A DNA stretch of 64,000 nt. Source: Dacryopinax spathularia (lineage: Eukaryota > Basidiomycota > Dacrymycetes > Dacrymycetales > Dacrymycetaceae). The DNA is taken from assembly GCA_037974965.1 (NCBI GenBank), contig JBBPFI010000002.1, forward strand, positions 806,001-870,000, given 5' to 3'. The notes below the pieces were generated by a model that had not been told where the DNA came from, did no database searches, and saw nothing but the letters and a program-made list of their open reading frames with translations. The translations under genes were made by a program, and so were the position numbers. This document shows positions 5,769-33,562 of this stretch, piece by piece; the first letter of the stretch is position 1, and every line of letters begins with the position of its first letter.

Positions 5769-7513
5769 TTTCCCCTGGCCCTCACTCAACTGGCCACGTC
5801 GTGTCTCTCGTGCTCACTAACTCTGTGCTGGGTGTGGTGCTGCTTGCTGCTCGATTGGGTCTGCTTGGCTGATATATGCCGGATCGCTGTCGACCGTCGC
5901 CTCACGTAAACGCGTTGGGCTTTCGCTGCTGTCTCTCTTCCCTCTGGCACTTCTGGAGAATCCAGTACACCGGTGTGCTCTGGATGTCTCTGCAGAGTAG
6001 CGCTTTTCTTCGAAGGCAGTCTGGAAGTGCCCCTCGGAATGCATCCACATTCGATCTCTGGACACTCGGCTGCCTGCAAGGCCTGGACGGACTAGATCGA
6101 CCTCTGCGCGGGGCCAACCGCGCTCACGTTGCTGCTGAGACAGCCTCCCACTCTCATACCAACCCACGCTCCTAATACCTCCAACCCCTTGGGCGCTGCC
6201 TCCTCAGCTTCTCATCCTGCAACGCGCACCGCTTTCTCCGGATCCGCAACACGCTTAGCAACTACTCGACTAGCGGCAGAGGTTATAAAGAGGCCGGTCA
6301 CCGTACTCGATCGCAGAAGAGGCTCTGTTCGCGTTCCCTGCCCCACTCTCGCACGCGTCTCTCTGCCCTGGGGCGAGGGTCGATCCCTCGCGCGTCGCGC
6401 TTCACTTTCGCAAATCACATACCGCGTCCCTAGCAACAGTCGTCGGTGGGTGTCACAGGTCTACCGCGCGATCTTCAGGTCATGGCGTCGTCACTCACCA
6501 CCCAGCTCGTACGAGGGGAGCAGAGAAGCACTTGCTCGCGTGGGTTTCCTCCCGTCTGCAAGCCACCCTGCAGAGGTATATGAACCCAGAGGGGGGGAGT
6601 GGACGTCCGCCTCCCATCTTTCTTCCCAACTACCACCTGCACGCATCTTCGCGCGTGTACTCTCGCCCAAGAGGCACCGTTCTCTCCTCCCCGTTCTCTT
6701 CTCGCTGCCGCGGTTGCTTGCGACGCGCATATAACTTGCTTTCAAGCAACTTCGTTCCTCCTCCTCCCGCCGTTCTCGCGTAAAACTCCCCCGTTAATAC
6801 GACAGCTGCGCGTATTTCTATCTCTCCTCTACCGCTCCCGGCGCGGTTATTATCGCCACCACTTCGCATCGCCGCTCGGGGTGCCACCATCGCACCCGCC
6901 ATTCGAGTCGTCACCGCGCGGCCAGTGAAACGACGGTCGAGCCGATTCTCCACTTCGATATCACGTACGCTCGCCTCGTCGCCGGCAGTCGCAGGATCCT
7001 CGTGGACCAGCTCAGTTGTCGACACCGTCGGTCACACCGAGTCGCCACCGAAAACGGGCCTTAGTCGGCGTTGACACCACACCTACCCACCCTTCAATAG
7101 CGTCTTGTCGCGTGGCAAATATCCACCCACTTCATACCGCCTTATCATAGCCAACCGCCTGCGCGTCGCTACCGCCACTCAGCGATCATCACCGGGGCGT
7201 ATATAACCACCGCATCGCTAACCGTTATCGTCATATCAAAGCATTGCCATATCTGTTCATCACCGTTAGCACCGTCGCCATATCCACCATTCGCCATACC
7301 AGGCCCCCTACTTGACGTCGACGCCCGCCCATCGTTCCCCGACCCCCAATTCTCCACAAGGCAATCGCCGTTCTATCGTATCTCATCATCAATTGTTCGC
7401 CGACCTCCATCTACTTGGCGTAAATATCTTCTCCACGTATATCCACCACGTGCATATACGCAGCCACTCACCCTCTGCTATTCCCAACTTATCGCCATCG
7501 CACATCATCGAAA
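5769..7513 (+). promoter_or_regulatory. Long CT-rich leader of L1 with GCGCATATA motif
   Basis: About 1.75 kb between the inferred start site and the L1 ATG, with no convincing gene. It is rich in C and T on the sense strand. It holds one exact GCGCATATA (6725-6733) and variants GCGTATATA (7197-7205) and GTGCATATA (7450-7458). The first sits in a 21-nt block (6713-6733, core GCTTGCGACGCGCATATA) that recurs with one mismatch in the L3 leader. A small inverted repeat TTGCTT-TC-AAGCAA follows directly. The region could be a real 5' UTR, an intron-bearing leader, or a tandem of promoters. Confidence 0.5.
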
Positions 7514-8589
7514 ATGCCCCATAAACTCGTCAAAGCACTCTTCGGTCGCCGCGTCCGCGCACGCGCGGTCGGTGCTTGGGCCGTCCACCTCATCTTCGGC
7601 AATGCCACGCCCCATGGCTCTCCCGTGATCATCAGCACCCCAGAGGCATCTCCTACAGTTGAGCAAAAGTACGTACCGTCCTAGTATCTCGCACACTAGT
7701 TTTTTGACGCATACATAGTGCTTTCCTTGCCCGTGTCCAGTTTGACTCTGAGATGACTGACTTAGCTGATGAAGCGGCGAGATATGCGGATATTCCCTTG
7801 GAGGCTCCTTGGGATGACGAGTACCCGCTTGAGCGTCCAGTTCTCCCCGTCGCCGTCGACGGTCAGGTGCTCCAGTACGATGACGCCCTCTTGGATACCA
7901 TCTGCCCGGTCATCAAGAATAAGCGTCGCTCCACTCGTCCCGTCACTCGCCTTCCCGCCCAACCTTTCATTTACCCGACCGCTCATGAGGCTGATCTGCA
8001 ATCTGTTCACCCCGATTCCAACGGCGCTCCCGGGGACGCTTGCCACCGTGCCATCTCCTTCGCCACAACGCCACCCCAATGCAAGGCCAACGCCCGCCAT
8101 TTTCAGTGTTACGCTCCCATTTGCGAGGCACCGGGTTGTCCCGCTCATGGTAAAATCTCGCCGCCTTCCACGATCGTCTCGTTGCCTGCCACCATGTCAA
8201 CCATGACCTTCACAACCTCGATGTCCATGTCGACCTCGGCGTCTTCTCTTTCCATGGAAGAACCGGCGTCCCCGGCCAAGGCGATTGTCCTGCCTAGCAC
8301 GATGTTGCCTGGTCTCGCGCCGGTAGCGCGGCTGTCTGAGGACGTTCCGGTCTACGTCCGTCCCCGTAACCCGGAACCGTGGGAGGTCCCTCAGCACCCG
8401 GCTGGTCATCCCTACAGGTATCTGGCCCCGTTGGACCTTGACGGTGAGCCCGAAGGTATGGGCGCCGTGATCGGCGGACGCCGTACACCATCGAGACGCC
8501 CCTTCGAGGGCTCGCGCTCTACCGCGATGGGAGGCTCCTCGACTTGGCTGGGGGCATCATGGACTGAGTGGCACCAGCGATCGCCGTGA
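7514..8589 (+). CDS. Orphan L1 protein with Cys-Cys-Cys-His motif
   Basis: Unknown family. Exons 7514-7668 and 7719-8589 (50-nt intron, GTACGT...CATAG, phase 2) give 341 residues. The N-terminus MPHKLVKALFGRRVRARAVG is basic and could form an amphipathic helix. The middle carries FQCYAPICEAPGCPAHG, a C-x4-C-x4-C-x2-H spacing that might bind zinc, and further on VYVRPRNPEPW. The L3 protein (30535-31899, minus) has the same N-terminal pattern, an intron of the same phase at the matching place, the same Cys/His motif (FRCYAPTCQAPGCPAHG) and VYRRPRNPE. Alternative 3' end: splicing CAG|GTATCT at 8418 to GGAG at 8594 stays in frame and removes the stop at 8587-8589. It continues to about 8952 through a hydrophobic stretch (AASCFIICAFVGFGALLFIA), giving a C-terminal membrane anchor like that of L3. 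Transcript data would decide. Confidence 0.62.
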
Positions 8590-9463
8590 CGGAGCCTGAA
8601 GCTGGGCTGTCGGCTCGCACGGTCGCGTCGGTATGTATCGGTCGAGGTCTCCCCGGCTCCCCTTGAATATTTGGCCGCATCCTGTTTCATCATATGCGCC
8701 TTCGTTGGTTTCGGCGCCCTGTTGTTTATTGCACCCCTGCCTAGTAGCCCGGCTATCACCGTTCTGGCTCCACCTGTGTTACTACCTTTTGTCTTGCATG
8801 TGTTTCGATTCCGATCGTTCGTGTTCTTGTTGTCTTGCTTCGCGGGAGGAGGGAGGAGGGAGGAGGGAGAAAAAATGTTCCAGGACTGGGACTTTTGCGG
8901 TGGGGAGTTCTGTTTCGCTTTTTCGGCATTGTCTATTGTATCTTCGTTCTAGTCTACGCAGACGTGCAGACGCATGTGTCTGTGCCCCTGCCTGTTTTGG
9001 TTCGTGTACAGTAGTGTCGGGTGAATCCGATCCACAGTGAAAATGTCTGGAACAGTTGTGATAGCTTCCCCCAGGTTCTGATGCGTCATGTAAAACACGT
9101 CCGCGTCTCAACACCGTGTCTTCAGGTAGATCGAGAGAGTAACAAGCACTTGACGCCGGACGTGATCCTCTTCAACCTGAGCACAGTCCCGTACGCACTC
9201 CGGCTCCCCGCAACCGCGGCGTAAACCTCCCCGCTCGCATCAACCCCTCATCAACATCAACGAACGCACAACGCACAACGCCGAGCCCAATCCCCTGCGG
9301 GGAAGCCGAGAACAAAGAACCATCGATTTGCGGGGAAAATGAATACCCGGCATCGTGATTGGCCCATCACCTGCATGATCCCTGACCCAGCCAACCAAAG
9401 GACAGGCCAGGCTGGACCACAACGGCACCCACACCCCCAGGTCATGCCCTCAGCCGTACGTAC
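8590..9463. other. Region 3' of L1, possible extra exon
   Basis: The first 360 bp are open in the L1 frame after the stop and encode a strongly hydrophobic stretch near 8670-8750, a candidate alternative last exon (see L1). From about 8955 to the transposon at 9466 I see no gene. Confidence 0.4.
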
Positions 9464-9465
9464 TA

Positions 9466-11531
9466 CAGTCGCGCCCCCCGTTAACTATACCGCCAATTAA
9501 GCATCACCCCCCGCTTACTATCGAATTTGAGCCGGCCCGAGTCGGTACATAAGAAAGTCCCTATGATGATAAGAATCACCCCTCCTTAACCATATTATAT
9601 CACTATTCCCGCCCATTCAATATGTATGATTGTTAACCAGGATCAGGGTTCTGGAAGCTCCCGAAGTGCGGAGTGCGGAATCAAGTGGAAGTTAGTGGCA
9701 GTTTTGCGTGTCATCCTGCAGTTTCCACCCTATGCAATGGCTGGTGAGAAGCGACAGCGAAGTAACCACACATATGCACAGAAACTGGTCGTGCTGGACA
9801 AGCTCAAGGCAACCCAGTGGTCCCAGCGAGAAGCAGCCGCGTATTTCCGAAAAAATGGTTATCCGACATTAACCCAGCCCGTACTTGCCCAGTGGCTTAA
9901 GCAAGAGACAACCATTCGAGCGAGAGCAGCAGACCCAGTTCATGCTGGCTTCAAGCGGCCACGCCTGGTGGAGTTTCCTGAGGTAGAAGAAGCACTGGTC
10001 ATGTGGACCCAGCAAGCACAAGTCAAAGGGCTAGCAATGACCGATTCAATTATCCGAATGAAGGCCGACCAGTTTGCTACGCTACAGGGAATACCGAAGG
10101 AGGAGTTTCTTTCAAAATCCAATGGTTGGCTCCAGCGCTTTAAGCAACGCCATTCGCTTAAGCAATATCGGTATCATGGAGAAGCTGGGGAAGTTGCAGA
10201 GACTGAGGTGGAGCCCGAGATTCAACGTCTGCGAAAGCTCACGGACCAGTATGCGCTTCATGATATCTTCAATGGCGATGAAACTGGTCTGTTCTGGCGA
10301 ATGCCTCCAGATCGTACACTGGCAACACTGGCTTGTTCGGGGAAGAAGGGCGACAAGAAAAGGCTATCATACATGCTCACCACAAATGCGGCTGGTACCG
10401 AGAAGCTGAAGCCACTGGTCATCGGCCATGTGCAGAACTCTCGCAGTTTCAAAGGCAAACCAGCATCATATTATGGTTTCGATTATCACTGGAATAAGAC
10501 CGCTTGGATGAAAGGTTCAATCTTTCAACAGTACGCTTGCTTTGCTGCATTTGCTGGTTTTGCGCTCATAGCAGCATAGTTATGTATCAACGCTGGACCA
10601 GCAAATGAGACGACAAAACCGAAAAGTGCTTTTACTGGTCGATAATGCCTCGTCTCATATCTATGACCAGTCTGTGATCACAAATGTGCGCGTCGAGTTC
10701 ATCGCACCGAATATGACTTGCCGGATCCAACCAATGGATGCGGGCATAATCCGAAACTTCAAGGCCAACTACAAGCGGCATTTTTTCCAGCGGGCACTTG
10801 ACCAGGAAGCGGCTGGTGCAGTGGATCTCTACAAAATATACCAGCTGGAAGCGATGCGGTTGGCGGAGAAAGCGTGGGATGAAGTTACCAGCACAACTAT
10901 TGCAAATTGCTGGCGTCACACGAAAATCATCACACCACGGGGAGCAGATGGTCTACCTCTGCCAGATACTGGTCGTATTGAGATTCGACCTGGGTTTGCA
11001 CAGGATGACGGCCTCTCAACCTCAATTCAACAGCTTGAAGCAAGCATGCAAGAACTACAGAATGCTGGTGCAATCGGACCAGCAAGGGTGATGGCGATTG
11101 AAGAGTTGCTCAGCTTCCTGACAGAAGACCAGGGCCCACCTGAGCTCACGGACGAAGAAATTGTAGGGGAGGTCTTTGCACGCCAGCAGGTTGAAACTGT
11201 GCCAGATGATGTGGATTCCGACGATGAAGCATTACCACCAGTAATGACTGACAAGGAGGCAATGGCAGCTATTCGAGAGCTTTCTCGCCTTTTTGCTGGT
11301 CGAACTGAGCCAGAATTTCAGCAAGCGCTCAACCTCTTTCCTGGACTCCTTCGTTCACTGCGAGTTTCTCATGTCCAGCAGTTGGTACAACCCACACTGG
11401 CAGATTTTCTCTCAAAAAGTTAGTACCGGAGAAATTTCGCTTCCGGTGGTAGTACCCTAGCTAAAAATCACCCCCTAATAACAATATCTCTCCTCTGCAC
11501 CGACCCCGATTGTTAATCAGGGGTACGACTG
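9466..11531 (+). mobile_element. Pogo/Fot1-type (Tc1-mariner superfamily) DNA transposon, looks whole
   Basis: A 2,066-bp element. The ends are inverted repeats: CAGTCGCGCCCCCCGTTAAC at the left, and CAGTCGTACCCCTGATTAAC when the right end is read inward. Both sides carry TA (9464-9465 and 11532-11533), the usual Tc1-mariner target duplication. It encloses one transposase gene on the plus strand with an open reading frame and a single 49-nt intron. The repeat arms differ at a few positions, so it is not brand new, but coding capacity looks complete. Confidence 0.88.
9737..11423 (+). CDS. Pogo-type DDE transposase
   Basis: Exons 9737-10530 and 10580-11423 give 545 residues. The N-terminal 60 residues (HTYAQKLVVLDKLKATQWSQ...) form a psq/HTH-like DNA-binding region. 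A CENP-B-type HTH region follows, around residues 75-150 (VEEALVMWTQQA, then SNGWLQRFKQRH). The DDE_1 catalytic core (PF03184 type) carries FNGDETGLFWR (first Asp), KVLLLVDNASSH (second Asp) and MTCRIQPMDAGIIRNFKANY (third Asp), as expected for Pogo/Tigger/Fot1 enzymes. The 49-nt intron joins ...FQ to HYVSTLDQQMRRQN in frame. A longer start at 9626 is possible, but 9737 sits just ahead of the DNA-binding domain. The C-terminal 150 residues are acidic and less conserved. Confidence 0.9.
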
Positions 11532-14736: not shown

Positions 14737-17700
14737 TCATCCTCGCGCACCATTACTCCCTAGCCGGACGACCAGACTGAGAAGAGCGGTGTTTTCGCTG
14801 GAGGCGTAGAACTGCAAGCAGTCCATACAGACCTAGCGGGAACTGATCAGCAGGAGAGATAGAGTTAAGTACCACCGCAACGCACCTGGAACGAATGATT
14901 ATAGTTCGCCTCAAACTTCTGGAAAAACTCCCATCGTTTCTGCATATCCTGTTCTCCCCTCGCCGCCCACTTATTAAAGTTCGACGAATAGTTCGCAAAC
15001 GTCGAGCACGTGAGCAACAGCCTCGAGTAAACCTTCAAAAGCTTGGAGCTCGTGAGCATGCATTCTTTTAGGCAGGTGTCGAGGAAGTCGACGTGGTCTT
15101 TTAGGAGATGGTCGACGGTGGAGACTTTTTCGAGGGAAGACTCGAGCTTGCGCCAGTTGGGCTCCAGCACTTCGGTCGTCGCGTAGGCCATTACTTGCTG
15201 GACGAAGGCGAGCATGCGCGCGCGGAGGTTGAACACGCGGCGCCGCCAGGCTTCGTGTTCCGAGACTTCTTGGGGTACGGGGCTGGGAGGTGGGAGAGGC
15301 GAGGATCCAAGCCTTGATGAGGCTCTGGAAGGTGCAGCCGCGCGCGAGCCAGGACGAGAGGGGACGGAAGGCGTGGGTGTGACGGATTGGGAGAGGACGC
15401 CGCGGGAACGCCAGACCGGCTGGGATTGGTCGGTCCACATGCCCAGGAGGGCATGTTCGGTCACTTTGAGGTGAAAGAGGAACCGGAAGAGGAGCTGGTA
15501 CCGGAGGAGGGTCTTACGGGAGATGACGAGCGAGAGGGGGAAGGTGACCGTGTAGTCTAGCGTTAGGGCGTCCATCGCTTTCATCCTCTTCAGCAGACGC
15601 TCAAGCAATATGCGGGAAAAGGTCGCACCTAGTAAGTCCCGCTTATCTTTCTTGTCCTTATCCTTGTCCTTTTCCTTTTCTCGCGCGCTCTCCCCATGCG
15701 CCGCACTCCCCCCGGCGATCGACCCCAAATCCCCACTAACCGCCACGACCTTCAACAACCACTCATACAGCCCCTCCCGCGCCATAGTAAGCCTCACATC
15801 CTCCCTAAACCCCCCAACCCCCTCATCCGGAAGATTCATAGCGACCTCCAGCAGCGCCTGCAATTTGGGCAGGGAGACGCTGCGCGAGGGCTTGCGTAGG
15901 TCGGGCATGGCTAGGTCTAGGAAGTGCGTGAAGAACCCGGATTGGGAGAGAAAGAAGTAACGTTTTAGAGAGCGGAGACGCGGGATGAGCTGTTGGTCCT
16001 GGATGAGGAGGGTGAGGAGCGTGCGGTTGGCGTGTTGGTAGGCGTCTTCGATGCGTTTGTAGAACCTATCAGGGACATATTAGCATCAGCAACATATCAC
16101 ATCATCTCTGCTCTCTCTCTCCCGGCTTCCTTCTCTCGCTCGGGCTCGGGGAAATAGAGAAACACGCGGGGAGATGGAAGAAGAGAAAAGCAGAAGAAAA
16201 CACTCACGGCTCACAGTCCATCCCGCCCTCCCACTCCTCCCTCCTCCCCCCCACATCCCGTCCACACTCCCTAATAACATTCACATACTTCCCCGCCAAA
16301 AGCACCTTCCTCTTCCACCTCTCCAAAAACTCCGGCACGCACGCCCCGCCCGGCAGCCTCCCGCTCCCTTCCCGGGGAGGGGGGACACCAGTGGTCATAC
16401 GTTCTTTTTGCCCCGGCTCGGTGGGCGTGCCGTCACGGAGTTGGAACCGGCGGTCCCAGTATTCGTCGGTGTAGTCGCGGTCGAGGAAGGAGGGGGCGAG
16501 GGAGGGGTGCGAGCGGACGAAGAATTCCGAGTGGGGGTCGTGCAGGGTGCCAGATTCGACCCAGAGGAGGAGGGTGCGCGCGTAGGGCGTCGATAGGCGC
16601 GCTAGGAGGGGGTTGAGCAGTGCTGGGGTTAGCGGGTCCCTGCAACCCTTACTGTCAGCCTTTCCGCCTTGTGTGTCCTCGCGAAAGAGGGAAAGAGTGA
16701 GAGTGGGAGAGGGACGCACCCGGCCATCCGACGCATACAATCCCACACAACAGCAATAACCTCCCCGCCCAGAACCTCTCCTTCCTCTTCCGCTCCGGCG
16801 TTCAAGCCCTTAACGATCCCTCCAATCCCCCCGAGCCCCAATTCCGCATTCCTTCTCTCTTCCTCCGAGTCGACCTCACTTTCTTCTTCTCCGTCTGAGC
16901 TGCCTTCGCCGGGAGGGTCGAGTAGGAGCGAGGAGGTGAGCGTGTACAGTAGGGCGAGCGTGCGGGCGCTGGGGTCGAGGTGCGGCAGAAGGGAGTGGAG
17001 CGTAAGACCGGGCTCGCCAGGTCTGGGAGGGGAAAGGAACGCGTGTTCGAGCCTCGTCACCAGCGTTACGTGTTCCTACCAGTCCCCGACCCTTTAGCCA
17101 CAGGCACGAAAAGGAAGAGACCTCGAAGAGATGGGAGGACGAACCTGGAGGATCGCCCGCAGTGCTCCGCACAGAGCGTGGTTCACGAACCCGCACGACT
17201 CCACGCTCTTAGCGGCTATAAATGCTTCTAGGGCCGTGTAGTGCGTCGCGATCGGCAGTAATCGCTGCACGAGGTCTCTCATACTCGGGTCTATCCCCTA
17301 CCGTCAGCAGCTATCTTCGTGTAGGAGGAAGAGGAAGAAGGGCGTACCGAGAGAACCATTGCACTCAAACACCGCACCAGCGAGCGGGTCATCCACGTGC
17401 GGACTATCCGCCGAGTACTTGATGACAGACCCCTCAATGCCGAGCATAACATAGAGCAAGTCCTCAAGGACCATCGCTTCCTGCAGCTCCAAGCTCAAGC
17501 CCTTCAGGTTCACCTCTCCCTCTCCTTCTCCCGCTCCGCCGGTAGAGGCGCGCGACTTTCCCTTCCCGGAAGTTGAGGGGATGGCGTCCGGGAAGGAAGG
17601 TAAGGGAGGAGGGATGCGAGAGTTGAGCGGCGCTTGAAGGAAAGAGGGTTCGGCAGCGAAGGACGTTTCGGCCCATCTACTCGGTCCTACTACTCCCATC

Positions 17701-18417: not shown

Positions 18418-18497
18418 AATCACGTGACAGACTTCTGATCTCAAATTGCTCCCGCGCTATGTATAAGAACGCGCGAACAAGCTCTGAATCACTCGTC
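18418..18497 (+). promoter_or_regulatory. Core promoter of orphan locus L2
   Basis: CAATCACGTGA (E-box at 18421-18426), TATAAG at 18462-18467 and AAGCTCTGAATCACTCGTC ending at 18497. The last block is identical to that of L1, the preceding ACA is also shared, and the TATA-to-block spacing is the same. Confidence 0.7.
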
Positions 18498-20315
18498 CCT
18501 TCGCTTCCCCTGCTCGATCAACTGCTGTCTTATGTCTCTCTCTACTGGAGATGCTCCTCTGTGCCTGTTAATGCAACTCGATGGGTCTGGATCTTCGGTG
18601 CTGGATAATGGTGGTGCGCTCTGTGGTCTAGGCTGGCCATCGTGATCGGGCCCTCTGCGAGCTCGTTTGCCCTCTTGCTTGGGTCTCCCCCACAGGACGC
18701 ATCGCTGCTGGCTCCGGTTGTCTCACCGTGGACAGCTCAGCTTCATGTTCTTCTCAGGCTGGAGGGCGCGCTCTCTTGCTATCACAGTCGATCGACACAT
18801 CATTCGAGCCCCAGCACAGCGCCCTGGTCCAACCCCTCTCGATCGGTGCAAACCTGGACTCAACAATCGCACCTGTGATCATGCATTCGTCATGATCGGT
18901 CATCATCCCGCATGACCTGCTCATCCTTCTCCATCTCCCTCCAAGAACTCCGCTTGCTCTGCTCCTTAGTGCTTCGTCTGCCTGCGCGTTTGCACAGCAG
19001 CGACTCAGCTAACTCGCCGGTACATAAACCGCGCGCTTGCGGCGGCCTCAACCATCGCTCTGGCTCTCCTCCTCCCGCGCGCCCGCGTGTATGTACCCTG
19101 GAATGTCTGACTCCCTCCTCACATCACATCGAGCACCTCGACTCACAATCACACACAGCTCGGTGCGTCGCTCGGTGCATACAGGCCTCGAACGCCCTTC
19201 CCACGCTCTCTTCGTCCTCCGTCCTCCGCCGACCAGTCCTTGGCATCTCTCCCTCCCTCTCGATCGGACGAACGTGCTCCCCTCCCCCCAGGCCTGCCCT
19301 AGAGCAACAGAGCAGCGTTCACGCGCATATACTCCCGCCCGAGCTCGCACTGACCACCCTCTGGCTCTATTTAAACCCCGCTTGGAGGGCGTTAGGGGGC
19401 GGTCAAGCTCTTCCTGCTACCACCACCTTCCCCCTCAGGCTTCCCTAGCCTGAGTGAGCGTCCCCTGCCCTAGAGGCCGTGGTTCCCCTTGCGCATATAC
19501 CTACCTACCTCCCTCCCTGCCTCTCCCTCCCTCCCTCCCTCCCTCCTCCCTCCCTCCCTCTGCGCATATACCTCCCTCCCTCCCTCTCCCTCTCCCTCTC
19601 CCTCTCCCTCTCCCTCTCCCTCTCCCTCTTCCCTCCTCCCTCCCTCCCTCCCTTCGTTCCACCCTCTCTCCACTTCGTTTCTCCCCCCTCCCTCCCTCCT
19701 TACGCCTTTCACGTCTCCCTCCCATTGTTTACGTCTCCTCCCATCGTCCAAATCCCTCTCTCATCGCTCACGTCTCCTCCGCATCCTCCACGTCTCCGGC
19801 CCATCGCTTACGTCTCCCTCTGTTCGGCGTCTTCTTCGCTTATCGTTCGTCACCTCCCTGTCTTTGTGACATCCTTTACTACCCACCTCCATCTCTCCCT
19901 TCCTCTCGCCTATCCGCGAGTCACCCCCGCCGCTGCGCGCGCTCCCTCCCCATCCCACCGCGGTTGAGCCCATCCATCGCTCCCGCATATATCATCAATC
20001 TCTATACCTGCTCCGCACCGTCGCCTACTCGGTCGGTTCAGTCCAAACCACTACCAAAACGGATATCCATCGCATCGATATCAACACGCGCAAGCGTTCG
20101 TCGTATCGCCCTCGACCGTCAACCATCACAGTCGTCGGTCTGCTCGGCTTGCTGAGCGCCACGCGCATCTAATTAAATACCTTCATCACCCGCTACCCCC
20201 TTCGTCACAACTCCTTCACCCGCCTCCGTATAACCTCCGCATCCATACCTCCTCCCCGAAAATACCATCCCGAACCGAGCACCACCCGCCCGACGCAATC
20301 CCCCAATCCATCATA
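18498..20315 (+). promoter_or_regulatory. Long CT-rich leader of L2 with GCGCATATA motifs
   Basis: About 1.8 kb without a convincing gene; the long frames here are Pro/Ser/Leu-rich readings of pyrimidine repeats. Three exact GCGCATATA motifs in sense orientation lie at 19323-19331, 19491-19499 and 19562-19570, and a CCGCATATA variant near 19983. Length and composition match the leaders of L1 and L3. Confidence 0.5.
19501..19700 (+). repeat. Pyrimidine simple repeat (CCCT/CCCTCT)n
   Basis: Runs of TCCC and CCCTCT units, interrupted by the third GCGCATATA motif at 19562-19570. The reverse strand is the matching purine tract, so this segment may adopt unusual structure and mutate by slippage. 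Confidence 0.85.
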
Positions 20316-20858
20316 ATGCAGTCCCAGCCCAACTGCTGCGCCTCCCCCCGTCCACCCACGCGCAGGGGGCGCCAAGACTCTGCACGTCCTTACGCGCCCA
20401 CCTGCTGTTGCAGGCCGGAAGCCGAATTCGCAGTTCACTCCTTTGCTTGTTTGCAGGCAAGCGCGAACGCGGCACCCTCGCTTCACGACCAACTCTACCC
20501 GATGCCGCATGTTCCCCCTGCCAGCGTCCTCGACGTCAAGGAGGCGCTCGTCGCCCACCAGGCCCTTCTGCTTGACTTCGAGCGGATGGAGCCTACCATC
20601 CATGACGCCTTACCGCCAACCCCCACTGCCACAACGTACTCATTCTCGGGTTCTCCTCTGCCCTCGGCAGTCCCCATCCTTCAGAACGTCCTCACCCGCT
20701 CCGCCGCGTCCGATGCCGTCACTCGCTCCTTCACCACCTACCTCTACCAATACCTGGTTGCGGCGCTCCCCTTCGGGGTTGAGCAGGAGCCCGCCAGCGA
20801 GAGCACCATCGCCGCGAGCGAAGAACGCCCTGGCTTCGTCCAGAGCGTGAGGGCGTGA
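20316..20858 (+). CDS. Orphan L2 protein
   Basis: Not recognised. A 180-residue single-exon frame placed behind the L2 promoter-leader just as L1 and L3 coding regions sit behind theirs. The first 50 residues are Cys/Pro/Arg-rich (CCASPRPPTRRG, YAPTCCCRPEAE); the rest looks helical (VLDVKEALVAHQALLLDFER, then a Thr/Pro-rich linker and SFTTYLYQYLVAALPFG). It lacks the L1/L3 N-terminus and the spaced Cys/His motif, apart from a weak echo in YAPTC. Alternative 3' end: a GTGAGG donor within the last few codons (near 20845) spliced to ...GTCGAG near 20980 would keep frame and add a hydrophobic end (PLLTGLFSSTATFISVFGFG). That would parallel the hydrophobic C-termini of L3 and, if spliced, L1. The start codon and the gene itself are tentative. 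Confidence 0.45.
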   Translation: MQSQPNCCASPRPPTRRGRQDSARPYAPTCCCRPEAEFAVHSFACLQASANAAPSLHDQLYPMPHVPPASVLDVKEALVAHQALLLDFERMEPTIHDALPPTPTATTYSFSGSPLPSAVPILQNVLTRSAASDAVTRSFTTYLYQYLVAALPFGVEQEPASESTIAASEERPGFVQSVRA

Positions 20859-21937
20859 GGGCTGTAAAGCCGCTCACTACTTGGGGACGTACGTAGAACG
20901 CACATGGGGACGGTGCATATCAAAAGGGGCTGCTTGTCACTCCCCACACATTGCATGGTACGGCGTTACCCGCGGAGTTTTGTCGAGCCATTACTGACGG
21001 GCCTCTTTAGTAGCACTGCTACCTTCATTTCGGTGTTCGGGTTCGGGATTTCGGTCGTGTCGAGACGTGTACGATTAATCGGCGAGTCTATCTTCGTAAC
21101 CACCAAAAAAAAGAGGTGTACGATTAATCGGCGAGTCTATATTCGTAACCACCAAAAAAAAGAGGTGTACGATTAATCGGGGGTTCTCTCAATATCTCTA
21201 ACTCCAAAAAAAGGGGGATGGACGGAGCGGGACGGGGCTTGGGTGGCTCTTTATATTCTTATATCTAAAAAAAAGTGGAGGTGCATGGTCTTGTTTTCGA
21301 CTTTCTGGCTGTGTTGCTTCTTCTTTGTATCATTACGACTGCTTACGACTCTTGATGACTGTGATTACTTTACGATTTTTTCTAGTTTTTGCTTTGTATT
21401 ACTAGTTTTGTAGTTCTGGTCCTTGGTTCGCTGTCGATCTCGTTGAATGGGAACAGTAAAAGCTCTTGATGTGTTCGAGTGACCAATAGGTTCACCCAGT
21501 TAGGCGGTCTTCACCTAAGTTAACAGCCATCCTCCTCTGGGTTGAACAGGCGGTGGTTGAGCTTACGTTAGTAACGATACGGAGTTGTGACTGTCTTCTC
21601 ATTGCCCAAATGAATCCTATCCTACACTTAAACACTCCCGCAACCAGCTACTATACAAGTCTATGCGAGTCTGCGAGCGAAAACTTGAAACATCGGGTAA
21701 GTCAGCAGAACGATGGGGTAAAGAAAGAAGAGGGACAGATTAAGCGACGTGGGTAACAAAACGAACTGGATGCGGATAGAAACGTCAGCAAAAGGGTATC
21801 GGGATGTTCACGAACTCGGAACTCGAAAACGAAAGCTGAGAAAGCTGGTGGAAAAAATAGTCGGCACGAAATGGATGCATGGCTGGCGAGAAATGGAGGC
21901 GAAGCGGAAGTCGTTCATGGTCGCATCCCGGGTAGGA
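20859..21937. other. Region 3' of L2
   Basis: About 1.1 kb between the L2 frame and the end of the next gene. It holds the 49-bp tandem repeat at 21067-21180, then AT-richer sequence without a recognisable gene. Confidence 0.45.
21067..21180 (+). repeat. 49-bp tandem repeat, about 2.3 copies
   Basis: Units start at 21067, 21116 and 21165 with GTGTACGATTAATCGG and include a run of A before AGAG. The first two copies differ at about one position and the third is partial. The period is 49 bp. Confidence 0.9.
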
Positions 21938-24250
21938 TCATTGCGCTCCAAGGGGCAAGTCAACGTCCAACTTCAGCCCCTCCTCCCCACTCGCACCTCC
22001 ACTCATGCTGCCGCTGCCGCGTCGCTCACTCCTCGGCGCACCACTCGCCAACGTCGCATGTCTCTTCCTTCCTTCTCCCTCTCCCTTCTCCTCCCCTGCC
22101 CTCTCCTGCCTCCCCTCGACGGAAGAAACAGCATCTCCATTCATCGACCCGGAAGGGGGGCCAGCAGCAGCGGTCTGGAGGTCGGAGAGACTTGCCGATG
22201 GACGGAACTCGAAGCTCGACCTGGATTTCTGCGAGTATATGCTCGGGTCTGACGTCGATCCTCCTTCGTCTGAGGCGTCCACTTCTACGCCTGCGCCTGC
22301 GCCTGCTCCGGCGTCTTGATCTGCTCGACCGGCCACTGCGGGTGTGATAGCCTCGGGAGGTGTGAACCGATATCCATACTCGCCTGGCGAGCTCGGCGCT
22401 GTTGGTGTGGACGGCTGAACACGGAGGAGAGGAGCGGTCATCGATGCTGTCAACCCTCCCTTCCGTTCTTGCACGCTTTCGGAGGCTGGACTGCGTGAAG
22501 AGAAAGAGGAAGAGGAGTGGGAGGTGGGTGCGTCGAGCTCGGAGAGGGCGGTGTCGACGTGGGCTATCATATCCCTCACTTGGGTGTTCGCGTCGGGTTG
22601 GTGGCCGTTGGGGAGGGATTGGGAGTCGGGGAAGAAGATCGCTGGTGCTGAGGCTGCTGCTGTCAAGCCGTTGGTGGTGGGTGGGTCATCGGTGGGAGCG
22701 TCGCGGCGGGTGCTGTCGGTCAGAGCGGTCGAGCTGCTGTCCAAGCTTGGCAAGCTCAGTCCAAGGCTCAGGGAGCTTTCGTCGCCGGTCGTACTGGGGA
22801 AAGACTGCATACTCCCACCGCTGACTTGGGAGGACATAGACGGCATCTGCTGCTGATCTGTCGGAGGAGAACGAGCTCCAAGAGCACCGTGCATCCCAGG
22901 TCGGCGGAGAATAGCGCCGAACAGGTCTTGCCGAGCCGCTTCCCTCTCTTTCTCCCTCTCACGGTCGGAATATGCCGAGCTGGCAGAAACAGCCGAAGGC
23001 GGCTGCGACTGTCCAAATGACGCTGCACCTGCTGCTGCTGCAGAGAGGGCCGCCGCAAGGGCGTCAGCGAACTGTTGCCCGGGGTTGGGATTAGGCGGAG
23101 AGGTAGGTATATGCGCCTGCTGCGTAGGGTGTGGAGGCGGAGGCGGCGACAGCAACGTACTAGGCGTCAACGGGAATGGGTACCCAGATGCCGGAGGAGG
23201 CGGGACGGTATACGGCCCCATACTGGCTACGCCCAGCGGGGGCATCGAGTGCGGCATATGCGGCATCGGAGCTGGTTGAGGTGCTGCGGCGTACCCGGGC
23301 GCGTACTGCGGTTGGGGTATGACGAGCTGCGGTTGACTCGGAGGGGAAGGAGAGAGCGCAAAGTGTTGCGGGCTTGGAGCTTGAGCATGGGTTTGGGGAG
23401 GGGAAAGTGCCCATGCTTGGTGTGCGGGGTGAGGGTGATGAAAGTGCTGCGCTTGGGGGTGTTGCTGCCAGACGGCGGGTGGTGGAGCGGAGTGGGAAAG
23501 AGCGGTGCTGAGTACTTGTTGGAGGTGGTGTACTTGCAGCAGGGCGTGTTCTTCTCGCGCGCGGGATTCGGCCAGCTGTATGCGCAGGCTTTCGACTTCT
23601 ACTTTGAGGCTTGCTACGTCGCCACCTGCTTGAGGCGGGGCGGAGACTGCGCTCCTTCCTGACCCGGGTGCAGAGGGAAGTGAAGGACTCCGAGAGGGAG
23701 AGAGGGAAGGAGTCGTATTCGGCGACGGCGAGAACCTAGGCGGAGGGCGGTAGAGATTACGCGGATGGGAGAAAGGCGGTGCGGAGAGATTGAACGATCT
23801 CGAGCTCTGTCTCGAGCCTCCCTGGCCATGCGCGTGCACAGGCGGAGAAAGATGATGTCTCCCACGTTGCGGTGACGGCCCTTGCGGTTTCCTGCCCAGG
23901 TTGAGGTTGCCTATCCTCCCCTCACTTCGCCCATTCGCGGAAGCAGACAGGAACGGCATATCCCCGTCCGCGGTCTCACTGGCGTTCTCGTCTACCCTTC
24001 TTCTCCTCAGTCCACTCCCGGCTGCAGGTGTACCAGACTCGGCCGAAGCGAGCGGTTCGGGTGTAGAGGGCAGAACGGGCGGCGTCGCGGATTTGTTGTT
24101 GCTGTAGAGCGGGCGGAGGTTGACGACGAGGTAGAGGATGGAGAAGAGGAGGAGGAGGGGGACGAGCATGTTCCCTGTTCCTTGCGGGGCCGTGGGGTTA
24201 TAGGACGGGAGAGAGGGCGATCCCAGGATGTCGGCTACGTAGCGCGGCAT
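21938..24250 (-). CDS. Membrane-anchored proline/serine-rich protein, unknown
   Basis: An intronless 770-residue frame, not recognised. One clear transmembrane segment lies near the N-terminus (about residues 28-46, NMLVPLLLLFSILYLVVNL) with no signal peptide before it, so the long C-terminal part is probably on one side of a membrane as a tail. A predicted coiled coil around residues 205-245 (VASLKVEVESLRIQLAESRA) follows. The remainder is low complexity: Pro/His/Gln-rich from 250 to 400, a short charged helix (YSDREREKEREAARQDLFGAI) around 435, then Ser/Thr/Gly-rich to the end. The 12-residue N-terminus MPRYVADILGSP resembles nothing I know. Its length without a stop in a GC-rich genome and the ordered TM-coiled coil make it a likely real gene. 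Confidence 0.68.
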   Translation of the reverse strand: MPRYVADILGSPSLPSYNPTAPQGTGNMLVPLLLLFSILYLVVNLRPLYSNNKSATPPVLPSTPEPLASAESGTPAAGSGLRRRRVDENASETADGDMPFLSASANGRSEGRIGNLNLGRKPQGPSPQRGRHHLSPPVHAHGQGGSRQSSRSFNLSAPPFSHPRNLYRPPPRFSPSPNTTPSLSPSRSPSLPSAPGSGRSAVSAPPQAGGDVASLKVEVESLRIQLAESRAREEHALLQVHHLQQVLSTALSHSAPPPAVWQQHPQAQHFHHPHPAHQAWALSPPQTHAQAPSPQHFALSPSPPSQPQLVIPQPQYAPGYAAAPQPAPMPHMPHSMPPLGVASMGPYTVPPPPASGYPFPLTPSTLLSPPPPPHPTQQAHIPTSPPNPNPGQQFADALAAALSAAAAGAASFGQSQPPSAVSASSAYSDREREKEREAARQDLFGAILRRPGMHGALGARSPPTDQQQMPSMSSQVSGGSMQSFPSTTGDESSLSLGLSLPSLDSSSTALTDSTRRDAPTDDPPTTNGLTAAASAPAIFFPDSQSLPNGHQPDANTQVRDMIAHVDTALSELDAPTSHSSSSFSSRSPASESVQERKGGLTASMTAPLLRVQPSTPTAPSSPGEYGYRFTPPEAITPAVAGRADQDAGAGAGAGVEVDASDEGGSTSDPSIYSQKSRSSFEFRPSASLSDLQTAAAGPPSGSMNGDAVSSVEGRQERAGEEKGEGEGRKRHATLASGAPRSERRGSGSMSGGASGEEGLKLDVDLPLGAQ

Positions 24251-26713
24251 CGCTCGTGACGCGTTTTTCGCTGCGAAGGGGGTGATGGGGGTGAAGAGTT
24301 GGTGGAGTTGAGCGAGGATGGAGGGGGGATCGCCGATCCTCGCTGCTTGGTCGCTGGAACGCAGGACGAAAGTCCAGGCACCGGGGTTTCAGACTGTTCC
24401 TTCAGCACTTCTCCCTCGAACCACGTCGGGCGCGAGCAAGCTCAAGCAGCAGTGAAATCCCAACAGAAATCCCTCCAAGCTCCTCCAACCTCGAATGATA
24501 GGAGCGAGTAGTCAAGCAGAATGCGAGTAGAGAGTGTCTGCGAGTCCGCTGACCGGGGTTGGGTTTTGGGGGTTGCGGCGGGCACGAGCAAAGGGTCGGC
24601 GGGCACGGGCGCAGGGGAAGGGGACGGCAGGCGGTCAGCCACGTGCCGGTGCGCGTGATTATAGCGGAGGCACTTTCGGAGCCGAGCTGCTGATGCCGTG
24701 CCTCTTGCGGTAGCTCTGACTCGTTCGACGACGACGACGACGAAGTTGTACAGTTGTTGACTGCGAGCAGAGTGCTGCTATGCAGCTCTGGACAAAAGGG
24801 CGAAAGCAAGGACGTTTAATTGTAGGCTTGTATCGTCTGGGTAGCCGCTCGACGACTTTGGCGTTACGCCATCCCCCTACATACGCCCAGCCTCCCACCC
24901 GCGCTAAACATCAATTCTTGGGCGCCAGGGGTAAATCGATAGCGAACAACAAGGTCATCACCCACCGTCCCTGCTCTCACTCTCTGTCCTACGATGTGGA
25001 GAACTTATCGGCGAAATGCATTTGTGGAGAAACAAATCGGACCGAGCAGCCCGCAACGACATTTCACAGTCGCGGCTCGCAGGCTCGGCTTACAAGTAGT
25101 TCCTCCTTCAGTTCTGCGTCGCTCATCTTCCTGCTTCGAGGGACTTCGCTCTCGCAGCTTCGTATTTCGACCTGCGGAAGCAGTCCCTTTTTTGGCAGAG
25201 CAATATTGCCGGTACTTGGGGATACTTTCACTCAGAATGCGGAGGAAGACTACCAACGCACCACTGGCAGCTTACTTTTCTCCGATTCAGCAAAATGTTG
25301 CCCATTCCGGCATTGCCCAAAGTGACAGAGCCAGTCTCAACTCCTGTTGTCCATATTCAAGCCCACCCGGCCCAGCAGGACTAGTACTAGTACTCTCATC
25401 ACCGTATAGTTATGTACAGTACTCAATATCACCGACCAATCGACTCCATTAAGCCAAGCCCAACCGGAATCAATCGGAAAAGCACGTACTAGTGCACGGC
25501 ATCAATCACCTCGCTCTGGCTGAGTAAGCCACTCCCACATCGTAATCCATCCCACGCTCTCATGCTCTTCATCCCTTCTCCGGAACTTTTTCGTCCGGCT
25601 TCTTCCTCCGGCAACCTTCTGGCGGGATTACGCAAGCAGCACGGCAACTTTTCTTCCCGCCTCACGCCCGATGGGCTGGCCCAGATCAGATCAGATCGGG
25701 CTCTGAGAAATGAGATCGTGGACTTTTTGCGTGACATAGACGCGCGTGAATGGATGTGGGCGGCGGGCGCTCGACTAAGCTTGCTTACTCCTTCTTGTTG
25801 GACCTACCCTGAGGGGCCGGAGGGGAGTTCCACGCTTTGGATGGTGGGATGGGGGGCATGGATCAGCGCGTTAGGATGAAGAAAGGGGCAGGAGAAAGCC
25901 CTCTGTGGAGAGGCTGGGCCGTGGGCTTGTAAGAGCGTGAGAGTGTGGAAGTGAAGCGCCAAACGAAAGAGAGCTGCTCGAAGCGTAGGACGAAAAGTCG
26001 CGCTTACATCCTGCAGCTGTAAGCTAGCGTCTCGTAAGCGCCCACAAACAGACCAAAATAACGAGTCGCGGCTGACGCACGACCGCGCGGTTGCCTCTCT
26101 GCTCTGCCGGTGTTCCTATCAAGCACCGCAACTCGGTCCTCCGGTACCTCCCGCCGTGCTCGTCATAGGCCAACCTACACCGCCGGCATCCTCATCTCCG
26201 AAGCAACTTTTGGCCGGTAAGACTTGAGTAGTCTTGCGAGCGATGCTGGGCGGGGACGACATCATCGTTCACACGCACAGAGTCTGCACGCGTCACGCCG
26301 GCCTCAGAGAAGAGGCGGAGTGAGTCCGCGGCTGTGTATTCCGTTGCTGTGAGATGAGGTCGCACGGGTAGGAAACGATTCCCGATCGGTCCACGCAGCT
26401 GATGTAAACCGCTGACTCCGCGTCTTCCCGTCCTTCTCTCGCTCGCTCACCTGCTTCCTCCTCGCCTTCTCAGCCGTGATGAGCGAGGCTTCTTATTCGA
26501 GAATGACATGGACAGATGGTGGGATGCTGGGATGGTGTATATAAGCGTAGGAATGGATGGGCGCTCGTGGGCTCGTCTTCGTTGGTCGCCCCCCCGCTCG
26601 TGTACTCGTCGTCTCCGCCGTCCTCCCCCATCATTAATTCTCCCCCTCCCCCTCCTTCAACTAATATAGCCCTTTCTCCCCCTGGTGTGGATATCGAGTG
26701 ACCGGAGCCAGCC
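24251..26713. other. Long intergenic region, no gene recognised
   Basis: About 2.5 kb between divergent genes. Several open frames of 80-180 codons occur (for example near 24780-25452 and 25562-25879), but none has a recognisable domain, consistent splice sites or family resemblance. A TATATAAG box near 26538, about 175 bp before the next ATG, probably belongs to the 26714 gene. Confidence 0.5.
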
Positions 26714-27283: not shown

Positions 27284-28132
27284 GCCACAAACCTCCGAAG
27301 CTTCGAAGTGGCGAAGTGCTTCGAGAGCGCGTGCTTCCTGTTTGCGGGCTGAGGGCTTCCGTTTTGGTGCTGGCGGGCGATAAGGGCGAAAGGGGGAGAG
27401 GGTGGAACGGCACAGAATGATCTGGTATATGGTGCGCACTCCTTCCGTTTTGGGACTGAGAGGAGATGGGGAAAGCTGACGGGTCGGAGTAGTTGGTTTT
27501 TGTAGGAATATAATTCTTTGTTGTATACGACGATCACACTTCACTCGACTCCAACTTCCATCTCACTTCAACTTCCGATCTCATGCTTCATACATCTCAA
27601 GTTAATGCTTTCGAAATAACGACGTGCTCTCGCTACGCCCTTTACGTCTCACGTGATCGTTTACAATTGAACTACATACAACCTGTACGATTATGCGCTC
27701 AACGAGCCTGGAAATGGAGATGTTAACGAACAACTTCCTCCCTGATGTGCTTGCCTGAACGAGTGCATGCATGCGCACTTCGTGCTGAACAACAAGGATG
27801 TATGCGCTGTTCTCAGTGCCGCAACTCTGGCGACTGTTGCCAGCCTGCGTCGGAAGCTCGCCAGCTGGCTGGTATGATCTTGCTTCCTGGAGCTGGCTGA
27901 ATGGACTCGGACTTTACTGGATGGACTCGATATGGAAAGAGTGACTGGATGAATTGGACAAGTTCTGGGACTGATGCCAGCTCTTGAGGCTCTGGTTGGG
28001 AAGTCGGCATCCCGCACTGGCAACAGCTGGCACCAGCCGTGCAGAACGTGCAGAACGTCCTCCTCTCACTGAGGTCCCTCCAGACGGTGAGGCCTCGTCC
28101 GCCATCCACCACTTCCCGTACTTGTTCTGTCA
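27284..28132. other. Intergenic region
   Basis: About 850 bp between two rightward genes. I see no gene; it should hold the 3' end of the ssSPT-like transcript and the monooxygenase promoter. Confidence 0.4.
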
Positions 28133-29977: not shown

Positions 29978-30534
29978 AGGCTCGGCCATCGTCGGCTTTG
30001 AATACCAAGAGTTTCGTAGCTTGGTAGGCAGGTGTATGTATGCACAGTCGCCATACGCTTGACTGCCTTGGAGGCGGCTGGCGTGTACAAACGCGGTGAA
30101 GTTGCGGTGCGCAATATCCGTCAACTCGTCACCTACGTCGGCAGACTCTGCGGTTTTACAATGCGCATCCCATTCGTTCAACGATGCAAACTAGTTATAC
30201 ACGATCAGACTAGAATAGAGTAATAGAAGAAACAACAGGACAAGCACAGGGAAAGGGTATATGACTTCCGCTCCGATCCAATCCATCCGCTCCACCTCCT
30301 CCAAGTATTAGGAATTATACGGAAAATAACGTATCACCCAAGCAACAGTCTAGGTAGAAAGACACACCCACAACACAACAAACGATCCCAAACTCACGGG
30401 CGGGTATAGGGGGTATATAGTACAAACTCTGATAAGGTGGGGAACGACACTGAGGTCGACGCCCCATCATGAACACCGTGTGGATACTAAGTTCACAGCC
30501 CGGATGTGAGCTCGCCCCCACGGTGCGTGGCCTT
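29978..30534. other. Convergent intergenic region
   Basis: About 560 bp between the monooxygenase and the 3' end of locus L3. No gene or repeat recognised. Confidence 0.4.
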
Positions 30535-31899
30535 TCAGGCTTGGACGTCCCCACCAATGGCAAGAGGGACGCCGGCAACGAACAGACCTAGACCGATAAG
30601 GGGCCGCTCAACGGTCTCCTGCGGCTCACTTGCGGAAGCAGCGGCCGGCTCGTCGTCCACCACTCGCTGGCGACCGAATAGAAAGTCACGGGCTGCGCCT
30701 GGCAGGAGACCAGGGATATCGCCAGACTCTGGGTTGCGAGGGCGGCGGTATACAGCCATGATTTCGTCCGACACGCGGGTGGTCGGCATCATGGTCTGAC
30801 GACGGGTGTGGGCCTCGACCCAGAGAGGCGGAGCTGGCGAGGCATTCGTCATCGGAACGCCAAACATTCCACCATGGGCGGGGCAGCCAGGCGCCTGGCA
30901 GGTCGGCGCGTAGCAGCGGAAGCGACCGGGAATGTGCGACGTCCTGGGCGGATCAGCGGCGAACCTGATAGTCGGCTGGCGAGCAGCACCACGAGGAGGC
31001 AGCACTCCAGGTTGCGTGCTCTGATGACGAGCGAGGAGATCGTCAATGCCTGCAGCGACGTGCTGATCGTCCGATAGGCGGTGAGGCACCTCCCAAGCAG
31101 GGGCATACCCAGGGAAAGCACGGAACTTGATGGGTTTCATGGGCGGATGAGGGCCGAAGCTGACTGCCGGGCGGCGAGCGTGAGTACGGATATACAGGGG
31201 CAGATTATTTTGCCCATCGAGCTTAGAATCCGCAAGAGAGTCGATCGCAACGGTCGATCCAGCAGGATGGATGGATGTGGAAGACACCGGATGGACGACC
31301 TCGTCGATCGACCGAGGTAGAATGTGAGGTTCGGGACGAGTCGTCGCATCCACGGAATGGTCAACAGCAGGAGCCTGGGGGCGACCCGTCATGCGGCCCA
31401 ACACGTCATCATCCAGGTGCAATCCCCGGCGGGTGACGGGGCGAAGAGCGTGGCGATCAGAGCCACGGGTAGCCGGTGGGGAAACAGATGTCGCCGGTTC
31501 CATGAGCACATGCTCACGGGACAGGACTTGGTTTTGAAGCTGAAGCTCTGGGAGCGAAGCGGGGTGGTCGGCCGTATGGCCAATAATGCCGTCAGCATCG
31601 GCGGAGATGGAATCGCGCGCAACGGGCTGGGTGGTGACGCTTGCCAGTGAAGAGCGATGTTCGACGGGAGGCAAAGGAGCGCTGGGTGGTATCGCGTCAA
31701 AAGGTTATCCAAGGATCGATAGGAAGTTAAAAGCGGCGCACCTGGGCTCACAGAATTCACTCGCAGTTATAATCCCATCGTCTGACGTACGTTGGACAGT
31801 CGCGACGTGGGTTGAAAGGAGGTTCGATGCCCACGCACGAAATCCGGTCGCGCGGAACGGGCGTTTGAAGATGGCCTTCAAGAACTTAGTTGGTGGCAT
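30535..31899 (-). CDS. Orphan L3 protein with Cys-Cys-Cys-His motif
   Basis: Related to L1. Exons 31899-31742 and 31681-30535 (60-nt intron, GTGCGC...CCCAG, phase 2) give 434 residues. N-terminus MPPTKFLKAIFKRPFRATGF then RAWASNLL corresponds to MPHKLVKALFGRRVRARAVG then AWAVHLIF in L1. The central motif FRCYAPTCQAPGCPAHG keeps the C-x4-C-x4-C-x2-H spacing of L1; VYRRPRNPE follows as in L1. The region between is longer than in L1 and rich in His/Pro/Arg. The C-terminus ends in a hydrophobic stretch (PLIGLGLFVAGVPLAIGG) that could be a membrane anchor. The motif might bind a metal ion, and the basic N-terminus might target a membrane or organelle; both are guesses. No known family recognised. 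Confidence 0.68.
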
Positions 31900-33562
31900 T
31901 TTGGATGATCGGGAGGGCTTATAGCCGTCGAAGATCAGTGATGGAAGCTGAATATATGCACAAATCTCGGTATGCGGCGGGTGCAGTCGAATATATGCGC
32001 GAGGTAGGGTGGAACAATAACCCTGACGACGGCGACGATGAGGGAGGCAGATATATGCGGGACCAGCGAACGACGACGTCCAAGTCGAGTATAGGAGACT
32101 CGGTCCTAGGAAATGCAGACGCTGGATATTGATGGGTCGGTTATCGACGCGAGACGGGAATATGGAAGACGGTTTAGTAGTTGGGTTGGTCCGCGCGGCG
32201 ATGGTGGCAGGGCCACTGGTAGCGGAGTTATGACAGTAAGCGATGTCGACTCACGAAGAGTATTCGCCCAGTCGGTGCTGGCTATGAGGCAGACCGATAA
32301 CGACAGAGTTGGGGTGGTCGGCAGCGATGTTGCGAGCCGATCTCTCTACCGACGATGGCTTGACGGCAGTCTTGGGTCGACGACGGTGAGATTGATAGGA
32401 TGGCGGTAGGGAGGATGGTGGTATGGGGTGAGGTTTATATGCGCAGCGGCGGGGTTATGAGAGGCGTGGATATGCGCGCAGCGGCGGTGGTATGGATGCG
32501 GTGGTTATACGGTGGAGGAAGGAGGGGAGGAGAGGAGAGGGGAGGAGAGAGGAGAGAGGAGAGAGAGAAGGCTATATGCGCGTTGCAAGCAACGAGCAAG
32601 GACAAGGAGTCGAGGGAGGGGGAAAACAGAAGCCTCTAGGCGGAGTACGCTCACGCGAGGAAAGGGGGAAGGTGGTGGTTGGGGGTAGAGTTGAGCGGGA
32701 GCGGTTCGCAGCCCCCGTTGGGGTTTATATATGCTGGAAAGGTGGCCGTGTAGGCGGCTCCAAATCCACGCGACTGTTCCTACTGTAGGACTTGTCTCTG
32801 GCTGGCGAGGTTTGCTGCTTCTGAAGGGAGAGGAAGGTGTGACGATCGGAAGATGTGCGTGATGAGACTTGTCCGGGCCCGCGTCGAGCGACGCGACTCA
32901 CAGTGGCTAGACGCGACGCGCGCGAGCGAAGTGCAAGACATACCACGGGTGCATACATGCACGCGCACCTTGCGAAGTGAGACGCGCGCGCGCAGCATGG
33001 CAGTATACCCGGTCGATAGCGAGAGTTGGCACCTTTATATGCTGGGAGCTTCGTCAAAAGGGAGCATGTGTGCAGTCGCGAGATCGGAAGCAAGGGTACC
33101 GAGATGCAGAGAAACCAAGCCAGCTTGGGCCATCCGCAGGAAGAGTTCGAACATGCCGCGAGACAGTGATTCCGCTCTACAGTCACAGACGATCACAGAG
33201 GCGAAGACACTTCGATCGCTGTACTAGTAGGCCAGCATCTTAGAGGCCGGAGAGACCCGCCGGGCGCCAGAAGCTTCAGGTGAGAGTACAACCTGGGCAG
33301 TCGATCGCAGAGACATCAATCGATCAGACAGCAGGAGGGAAACCATGCACGACCGCCAGAGTCGTGAGAGCAGGTCGACTTTGAACAACGAGCACGGTCT
33401 GAAGGGCAGTCCAAAGGGTAGTCCTCCATGGTCATCATGAGACCCGTTGATGTCGGAGGGTAGAGCTCTTGAGGTCAAAGACATGCCGAGCACCAGAAGC
33501 ATGCTCTATGTCGCCAGAAGGAGAGCGTTCCAGACCAGAGCGCGAGCGAGGGAGAGAGTCGA
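31900..33562 (-). promoter_or_regulatory. Long leader of L3 with GCGCATATA motifs
   Basis: About 1.66 kb, pyrimidine-rich on the minus (sense) strand. Exact GCGCATATA in sense orientation lies at 31992-32000, 32436-32444 and 32573-32581, with variants near 31953, 32052, 32470, 32727 and 33036. The block at 32573-32593 matches L1 6713-6733 with one mismatch and includes the inverted repeat GTTGC-TT-GCAAC. A purine tract (plus strand, about 32515-32572) sits beside it, like the pyrimidine tracts in the other leaders. No convincing gene within. Confidence 0.5.

Follow-up and report, generated by a model that had tools for sequence, protein, structure and literature searches.

In a 64,000-nucleotide stretch of the Dacryopinax spathularia genome (contig JBBPFI010000002.1, positions 806,001 to 870,000 of the forward strand; hereafter the window), three orphan genes, at loci that we call A, B and C, are each preceded by two conserved promoter-like blocks, a distal one (P) and a proximal TATA-like one (block 3). 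At each locus the sequence from block 3 to the start codon (A, 7514 on the plus strand; B, 20316, plus; C, 31899, minus) is wholly without ATG, and the same regions are enriched in the nonamer GCGCATATA and the heptamer GCATATA. Judging from the sequence, we give about an even chance to the reading that each locus has two stacked promoters, which would produce a long transcript bearing upstream open reading frames (uORFs) and a short, AUG-free one.

Absence of ATG upstream of the orphan start codons

Counted from a point 5 nt inside block 3 (in locus A the block itself holds an ATG, at 6580, which is the last one upstream of the gene), the proximal regions total 2.7 kb and contain 0 ATG, where base composition would predict 18.7 and dinucleotide composition 16.6. 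The distal regions, from P to block 3, contain 30 (4 in A, 11 in B and 15 in C), against 25.5 or 29.4 expected under the same two models. The other five permutations of A, T and G occur 11 to 14 times each in the proximal regions. At all three loci the proximal ATG-free stretch measures 0.83-0.94 kb, and in a ranking by length of the runs without ATG, both strands of the window included, numbers 1, 2 and 4 terminate exactly at the start codons of the orphan genes. Local shuffling never yielded a third-longest run of at least 830 nt (0/300), and among overlapping windows of the same lengths elsewhere, those free of ATG number 3 of 11206, 1 of 11198 and 13 of 11294. The run that ranks third (16175-17130, plus strand, 957 nt) lies beside a gamma-tubulin complex open reading frame (ORF) on the opposite strand.

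Such an absence is what would be expected to remain if upstream AUGs were selected against in a leader that ribosomes scan. It argues that the three ATGs are true starts, that of locus B included, and that the proximal stretch before each of them is leader. The original prediction had proposed a functional leader filling the gene-less stretch of about 1.7 kb between a shared promoter and each orphan ATG. The stretch itself is as described, with 1781 nt in A, 1854 nt in B and 1676 nt in C when measured from promoter anchors at 5733, 18462 and 33575, and Pfam searches with 10 of its 15 overlapping sense ORFs (110 aa or longer) found no match. A functional, transcribed leader is strongly supported by the zero proximal ATG count at the three loci, but a single leader running the whole way from P is disfavoured by the 30 distal ATGs and by the second TATA-like block.

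Conserved blocks and proposed stacked promoters

The common elements follow one 5' to 3' order at all three loci: P, a first internal TATA-like block (near 6284 in A, 19021 in B and 33039 in C), and block 3. P combines CACGTGA with AGCTCTGAATCA, accompanied in A and B by TATAAGA; locus C has no TATA at P. Its 36-nt block is 88.9% identical between A and B (E 6e-8), and GCTCTGAATCA, associated with P, occurs exactly three times in the window. Reverse-strand control alignments gave low-complexity matches down to E 3e-5, of which P stands clear. Two matches between B and C near E 8e-7 also clear this control; one is a pure pyrimidine repeat, and the other is a non-collinear stretch common to the three loci, CGTATAACC-CCGCATC, found at about -610 in C (~32509, minus), -310 in A (7203, plus) and -90 in B (20226, plus). 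After block 3, A and C have in common GTTGCTTGC-ACGCGCATATA and then GTGCATATA, some 60 nt before the ATG. A search of a viral contig collection found no relative of the P sequence.

The three upstream regions are probably related copies, and with these conserved blocks in common they are not independent witnesses. It might even be asked whether descent alone accounts for everything, with one promoter region duplicated and its three copies since diverged, in a genome that has much CT-rich upstream sequence and many copies of GCATATA. The blocks common to the three regions, the paralogy of the A and C proteins and the raised frequency of GCATATA across the window all suit such an explanation. 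It leaves unexplained, however, why 2.7 kb should contain no ATG when the distal halves are at chance level, and why copies of the motif stand out of sequence that otherwise aligns poorly, and we consider it highly unlikely.

The distal block also looks like a genuine promoter. In each locus the pyrimidine content rises abruptly at P, from 0.51 in the 600 nt before it to 0.58 in the 600 nt after it in A, from 0.48 to 0.60 in B and from 0.53 to 0.59 in C. Over the whole distance from P to the ATG it reaches 0.596 (A), 0.672 (B) and 0.615 (C), higher than in any of the 1036 other 1700-nt strand windows, which overlap one another (maximum 0.584), so that the base skew proposed earlier for the leaders holds for all three.

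The step at P suggests that the distal half is transcribed, which would also suit a single transcript from P on which short distal uORFs are translated, scanning resumes, and the ATG-free 0.9 kb serves as the spacer over which initiator tRNA is regained, as in GCN4-type reinitiation. Consistent with this, all uORFs that start before block 3 end before it or at most ~85 nt past it. The load of distal ATGs would nevertheless be severe, the longest ORFs being 99, 178 and 92 aa in A, B and C, and the second TATA-like block would have no explanation; we regard reinitiation from P alone as unlikely. Splicing offers no simple escape from the upstream ATGs. No GTRNGT donor lies between P and the first upstream ATG at any of the three loci, although weaker donors could exist, so that a single canonical intron could not take out every one of them, and we rejected this possibility for such an intron.

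With two stacked promoters, P would start a transcript whose first 0.84-0.91 kb bears the upstream ATGs and which would be poorly translated, and block 3, a TATA-type element 0.83-0.95 kb before the ATG, would start the productive mRNA. The long pyrimidine-rich leader of the latter would be kept AUG-free, allowing ribosomes to scan to the orphan start codon, and GCGCATATA and GCATATA would be a repeated proximal element that works either as part of the leader RNA or, past the start site, as DNA. A CA dinucleotide that could serve as start has its A 39 (A), 37 (B) and 39 (C) nt after the first T of block 3, close to the 35-40 bp that separate TATA and transcription start site (TSS) in Cryptococcus (PMC11302930), a weak indication since CA is common here. 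Viewed as sequence alone, an AUG-free 0.83-0.94 kb next to an upstream half that is not free of ATG would be a footprint of where scanning begins.

Several observations weigh against this reading. In local shuffles the longest ATG-free run has a median of 688 nt and a 95th percentile of 935 nt; a single run of such size is not rare, and what carries the argument is that three runs end at the three ATGs. Block 3 sits at the boundary of the ATG-free zone in A, but 264 nt (B) and 209 nt (C) inside it, where 1.7 and 2.0 ATGs would be expected, and the start may therefore lie further upstream in these two loci. The first internal TATA-like block makes block 3 one candidate among several, and in locus A block 3 reads TATATGA, a poor TATA box. 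The distal half of A has just 4 ATGs against 6.9-8.5 expected, and contains an ATG-free run of 443 nt. Finally, among gene starts elsewhere in the window, which were taken mechanically from ORFs, that of a 770-aa ORF without Pfam match at 24250 (minus) is directly preceded by 621 nt without ATG (24251-24871). This stretch has no copy of GCATATA, so that the genome may be rich in long AUG-free leaders but not in the motif.

The GCGCATATA/GCATATA element

All seven copies of GCGCATATA that had been located by eye in the three upstream regions are where they were placed, each in the sense orientation (Table 1). Six of them lie in the proximal leaders and the seventh, at 19323, is 45 nt upstream of block 3 in locus B. 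The rest of the window holds four copies (3133, plus; 11758, minus; 23108, minus; 62545, plus) and not three as had been counted. All four fall within stop-to-stop ORFs of 110 aa or more, which says little, since such ORFs span much of the window, leaders included. The enrichment itself is far above that of shuffled sequence of equal composition: whole-window shuffles average 0.14 matches and never reach the observed 11 (0/100), and leader shuffles average 0.00 and never reach the 7 sense copies (0/500). Among all 9-mers, GCGCATATA ranks first when the window is described by a fourth-order model (11 against 0.92 expected).

A scan of the proximal leaders for k-mers present in all three, with no motif preselected, again placed GCGCATATA first among 9-mers. 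GCATATA was the most over-represented heptamer (10 against 0.21 expected), and ACCACC (11 against 1.29), CCTCCC (32 against 8.75) and ATATCCA (6 against 0.27) were enriched as well. Across the window, too, GCATATA exceeds expectation (32 copies against 11.5 under the fourth-order model); 14 of the 32 fall in the three leaders (13 in sense and 1 in antisense orientation) and 18 outside, and the copy at 32728 in locus C overlaps block 3. Several GCATATA copies occupy matching places in pairs of loci, which, counted from the start codon, are -787 in A and -680 in C, -62 in A and -60 in C, and -331 in B and -159 in C.

The sense-only orientation might appear to point to action as RNA, as in the RNA-binding array proposed earlier. 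This argument is lost. The reverse complement of GCATATA, TATATGC, contains ATG, and ATG is avoided in the leaders; heptamers of the same letters occur there in a sense to antisense ratio of 14:0 if their reverse complement holds ATG, and of 18:20 otherwise. Orientation, being confounded with ATG avoidance, cannot separate DNA from RNA action, and we rejected it as evidence. The enrichment and the matching positions in locus pairs remain.

Several functions that the element might serve were considered. As a plain TATA box it was rejected, the TATAWA core being found in only 1 of the 10 proximal copies of GCATATA. The copies could also be weak core-promoter elements, each with its own start, in one long dispersed promoter where the absence of ATG keeps every isoform translatable. 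The CATATA core is TATA-like, A and C each have a copy 60-62 nt before the ATG, and the absence of ATG continues right up to the start codon, all of which would agree with this; conservation, however, is on the 5' side (GC or GCGC) and not in a WAW after TATA. Given also the rarity of TATAWA, the repeated start sites put forward earlier fit poorly, and a dispersed promoter seems to us quite improbable. As for the translational delay that had also been put forward, the sequence speaks neither for it nor against it.

Another possibility, compatible with two promoters, is that the array binds a protein acting on translation, stability or transport of the mRNA. All ten proximal GCATATA copies lie downstream of the presumed start, and several are at matching places in two loci (the A/C and B/C pairs); in contrast, their orientation is forced by ATG avoidance, and familiar binding motifs are not jointly enriched. 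Pum proteins bind TGTANATA and Ssd1 binds CNYTCNYT (CNYUCNYU in RNA). The Pumilio motif UGUANAUA is absent from all three leaders, that of Ssd1 shows no joint enrichment (A, 2 against 2.7 expected; C, 5 against 3.4), exceeding expectation in B only (28 against 8.0), where the sequence is a simple CCCTCT/CCTC repeat, and PTB-like and Whi3-like motifs show no enrichment common to the three leaders. Rfam gave no match in the leaders. An RNA-binding array appears quite unlikely to us. With regard to a structured leader, such as a riboswitch or a structured IRES, folding energies in A and C are close to those of shuffled sequence (z -0.65 and -1.42, 20 shuffles each), and the z of -5.57 in B, likewise from 20 shuffles, is unsafe, since its pyrimidine-repeat block makes whole-length shuffles a poor null. 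Very doubtful is a portable module in which an AUG-free, pyrimidine-rich leader of 0.8-0.95 kb with 2-5 GCAUAUA sites would, together with its tandem promoters, be common to several orphan genes, two paralogous and one without clear homology, an undescribed RNA-binding protein controlling them as one set. As a repeated element, GCGCATATA would be a candidate for a new control site.

Orphan proteins and neighbouring elements

The protein predicted at locus C matches locus A at 7999-8391 with 33% identity (E 2.7e-9), and the first exons of the two genes are 46% identical over 26 residues, indicating that proteins A and C are paralogous. A cysteine motif, CYAP-C-APGCPAHG, is common to C (30850-30950, minus) and A (8099-8150, plus). 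Protein B has no clear homology to either; its best pairwise match, with C, has an E of 0.064 and includes a YAPTC stretch. These protein comparisons used a mis-spliced 56-aa model of A and not the 341-aa model of Table 1, which is one of 11 in-frame exon models. Pfam gave no match for the locus B ORF or for the ORF of locus C exon 2, and protein C had no relative in the viral contig collection (seven pattern matches, none confirmed).

Table 1. Coordinates of promoter blocks, ATG-free zones and predicted coding sequences at the three loci.
Feature	Position in window	Strand	Details
Locus A, distal promoter P	5695-5768	+	TCACGTGA 5695-5702, then TATAAGA...ACAAGCTCTGAATCACTCGTC 5733-5768
Locus B, distal promoter P	18420-18497	+	TCACGTGA 18420-18427; TATAAGA...AGCTCTGAATCACTCGTC 18462-18497
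Locus C, distal promoter P	33558-33620	-	CACGTGA 33613-33619; GAGCTCTGAATCA from 33575; without TATA between
Locus A, block 3 (second TATA-like block)	6577-6587	+	TATATGAACCC
Locus B, block 3	19368-19378	+	TATTTAAACCC; TCA with A 37 nt after first T
Locus C, block 3	32721-32731	-	TATATAAACCC; TCA with A 39 nt after first T
Locus A, ATG-free leader zone	6581-7513	+	GCGCATATA 6725; GCATATA 7452
Locus B, ATG-free zone	19104-20315	+	GCGCATATA 19323 (upstream of block 3), 19491, 19562; GCATATA 19985
Locus C, ATG-free zone	31900-32940	-	GCGCATATA 31992, 32436, 32573; GCATATA also 31953, 32052, 32728
Locus A, coding sequence	7514-8589	+	341 aa; predicted exons 7514-7668 and 7719-8589
Locus B, coding sequence	20316-20858	+	180-aa ORF
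Locus C, coding sequence	30535-31899	-	434 aa; predicted exons 31899-31742 and 31681-30535

The window has a GC content of 57%, and its genes are seemingly broken by short introns. It codes for pieces of a gamma-tubulin complex gene, a Tc5/DDE transposase, a purine permease and an MFS transporter, and weaker Pfam matches, below the curated cut-off, were to RPE65, F-box, NADAR and Ost-alpha. An element of ~550 bp (4809-5357), some 375 bp before P in locus A, has 94-nt inverted ends (97% complementary) and CAGCGGCACG directly on both sides, and looks like a small non-autonomous transposon. Directly downstream of the same locus, a Tc5/DDE_1 (pogo-like) transposase extends across two ORFs (9590-11420). 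Three tandem 49-nt repeats with A-runs follow the locus B ORF (21063-21209), the second copy being 96% and the third 67% identical to the first. Repeated blocks occur at 34564-34853, 60651-60947 and 63133-63427, one of them beside an MFS_1 ORF (60957-61982) and one upstream of locus C.

Comparison with known systems

The nearest study among the matches listed in our literature search is a long-read mRNA survey of mushroom-forming species, which found untranslated regions longer than annotated (PMC4503453) and whose main text contains none of the terms TSS, uORF and leader. Among the matches listed, none for GCGCATATA as a term was apparently related to fungal promoters, and CATATA was not found together with mushroom terms.

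Closest in arrangement is the alternative TSS usage described in Cryptococcus, where a distal start adds uORFs and a proximal one gives a uORF-free mRNA, the proximal form of CNA08250 skipping 11 uORFs (PMC11302930). As in our three loci, with P and block 3 as candidate starts, uORFs lie between the starts (here 4, 11 and 15 ATGs) and the proximal leader is AUG-free, and block 3, with its CA start candidate 37-39 nt downstream, resembles the Cryptococcus TATA core promoters, from which GCGCATATA, mostly without TATAWA, differs. The available text of that account has no counterpart of the motif array. The median leader of C. neoformans is given as 105 nt (PMC7049704), next to which an AUG-free leader of 0.8-0.95 kb, predicted here from the DNA sequence, would be unusually long.

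Long undecoded transcript isoforms (LUTIs) of budding yeast have extensions that hold ATG no more often than sequence upstream of other genes (PMC8153250). Candidate tandem promoters and a background ATG density in the distal extension are features of our loci too, but LUTIs belong to a different fungal group and are known for developmental switching and repression of the proximal promoter. Stacked promoters, with a long form that bears uORFs and a short form free of them, are the simplest reading of our loci and an arrangement already known from these systems; should block 3 indeed be a start site, the three loci would lend themselves readily to testing uORF-switch control by tandem promoters in mushroom-type fungi.

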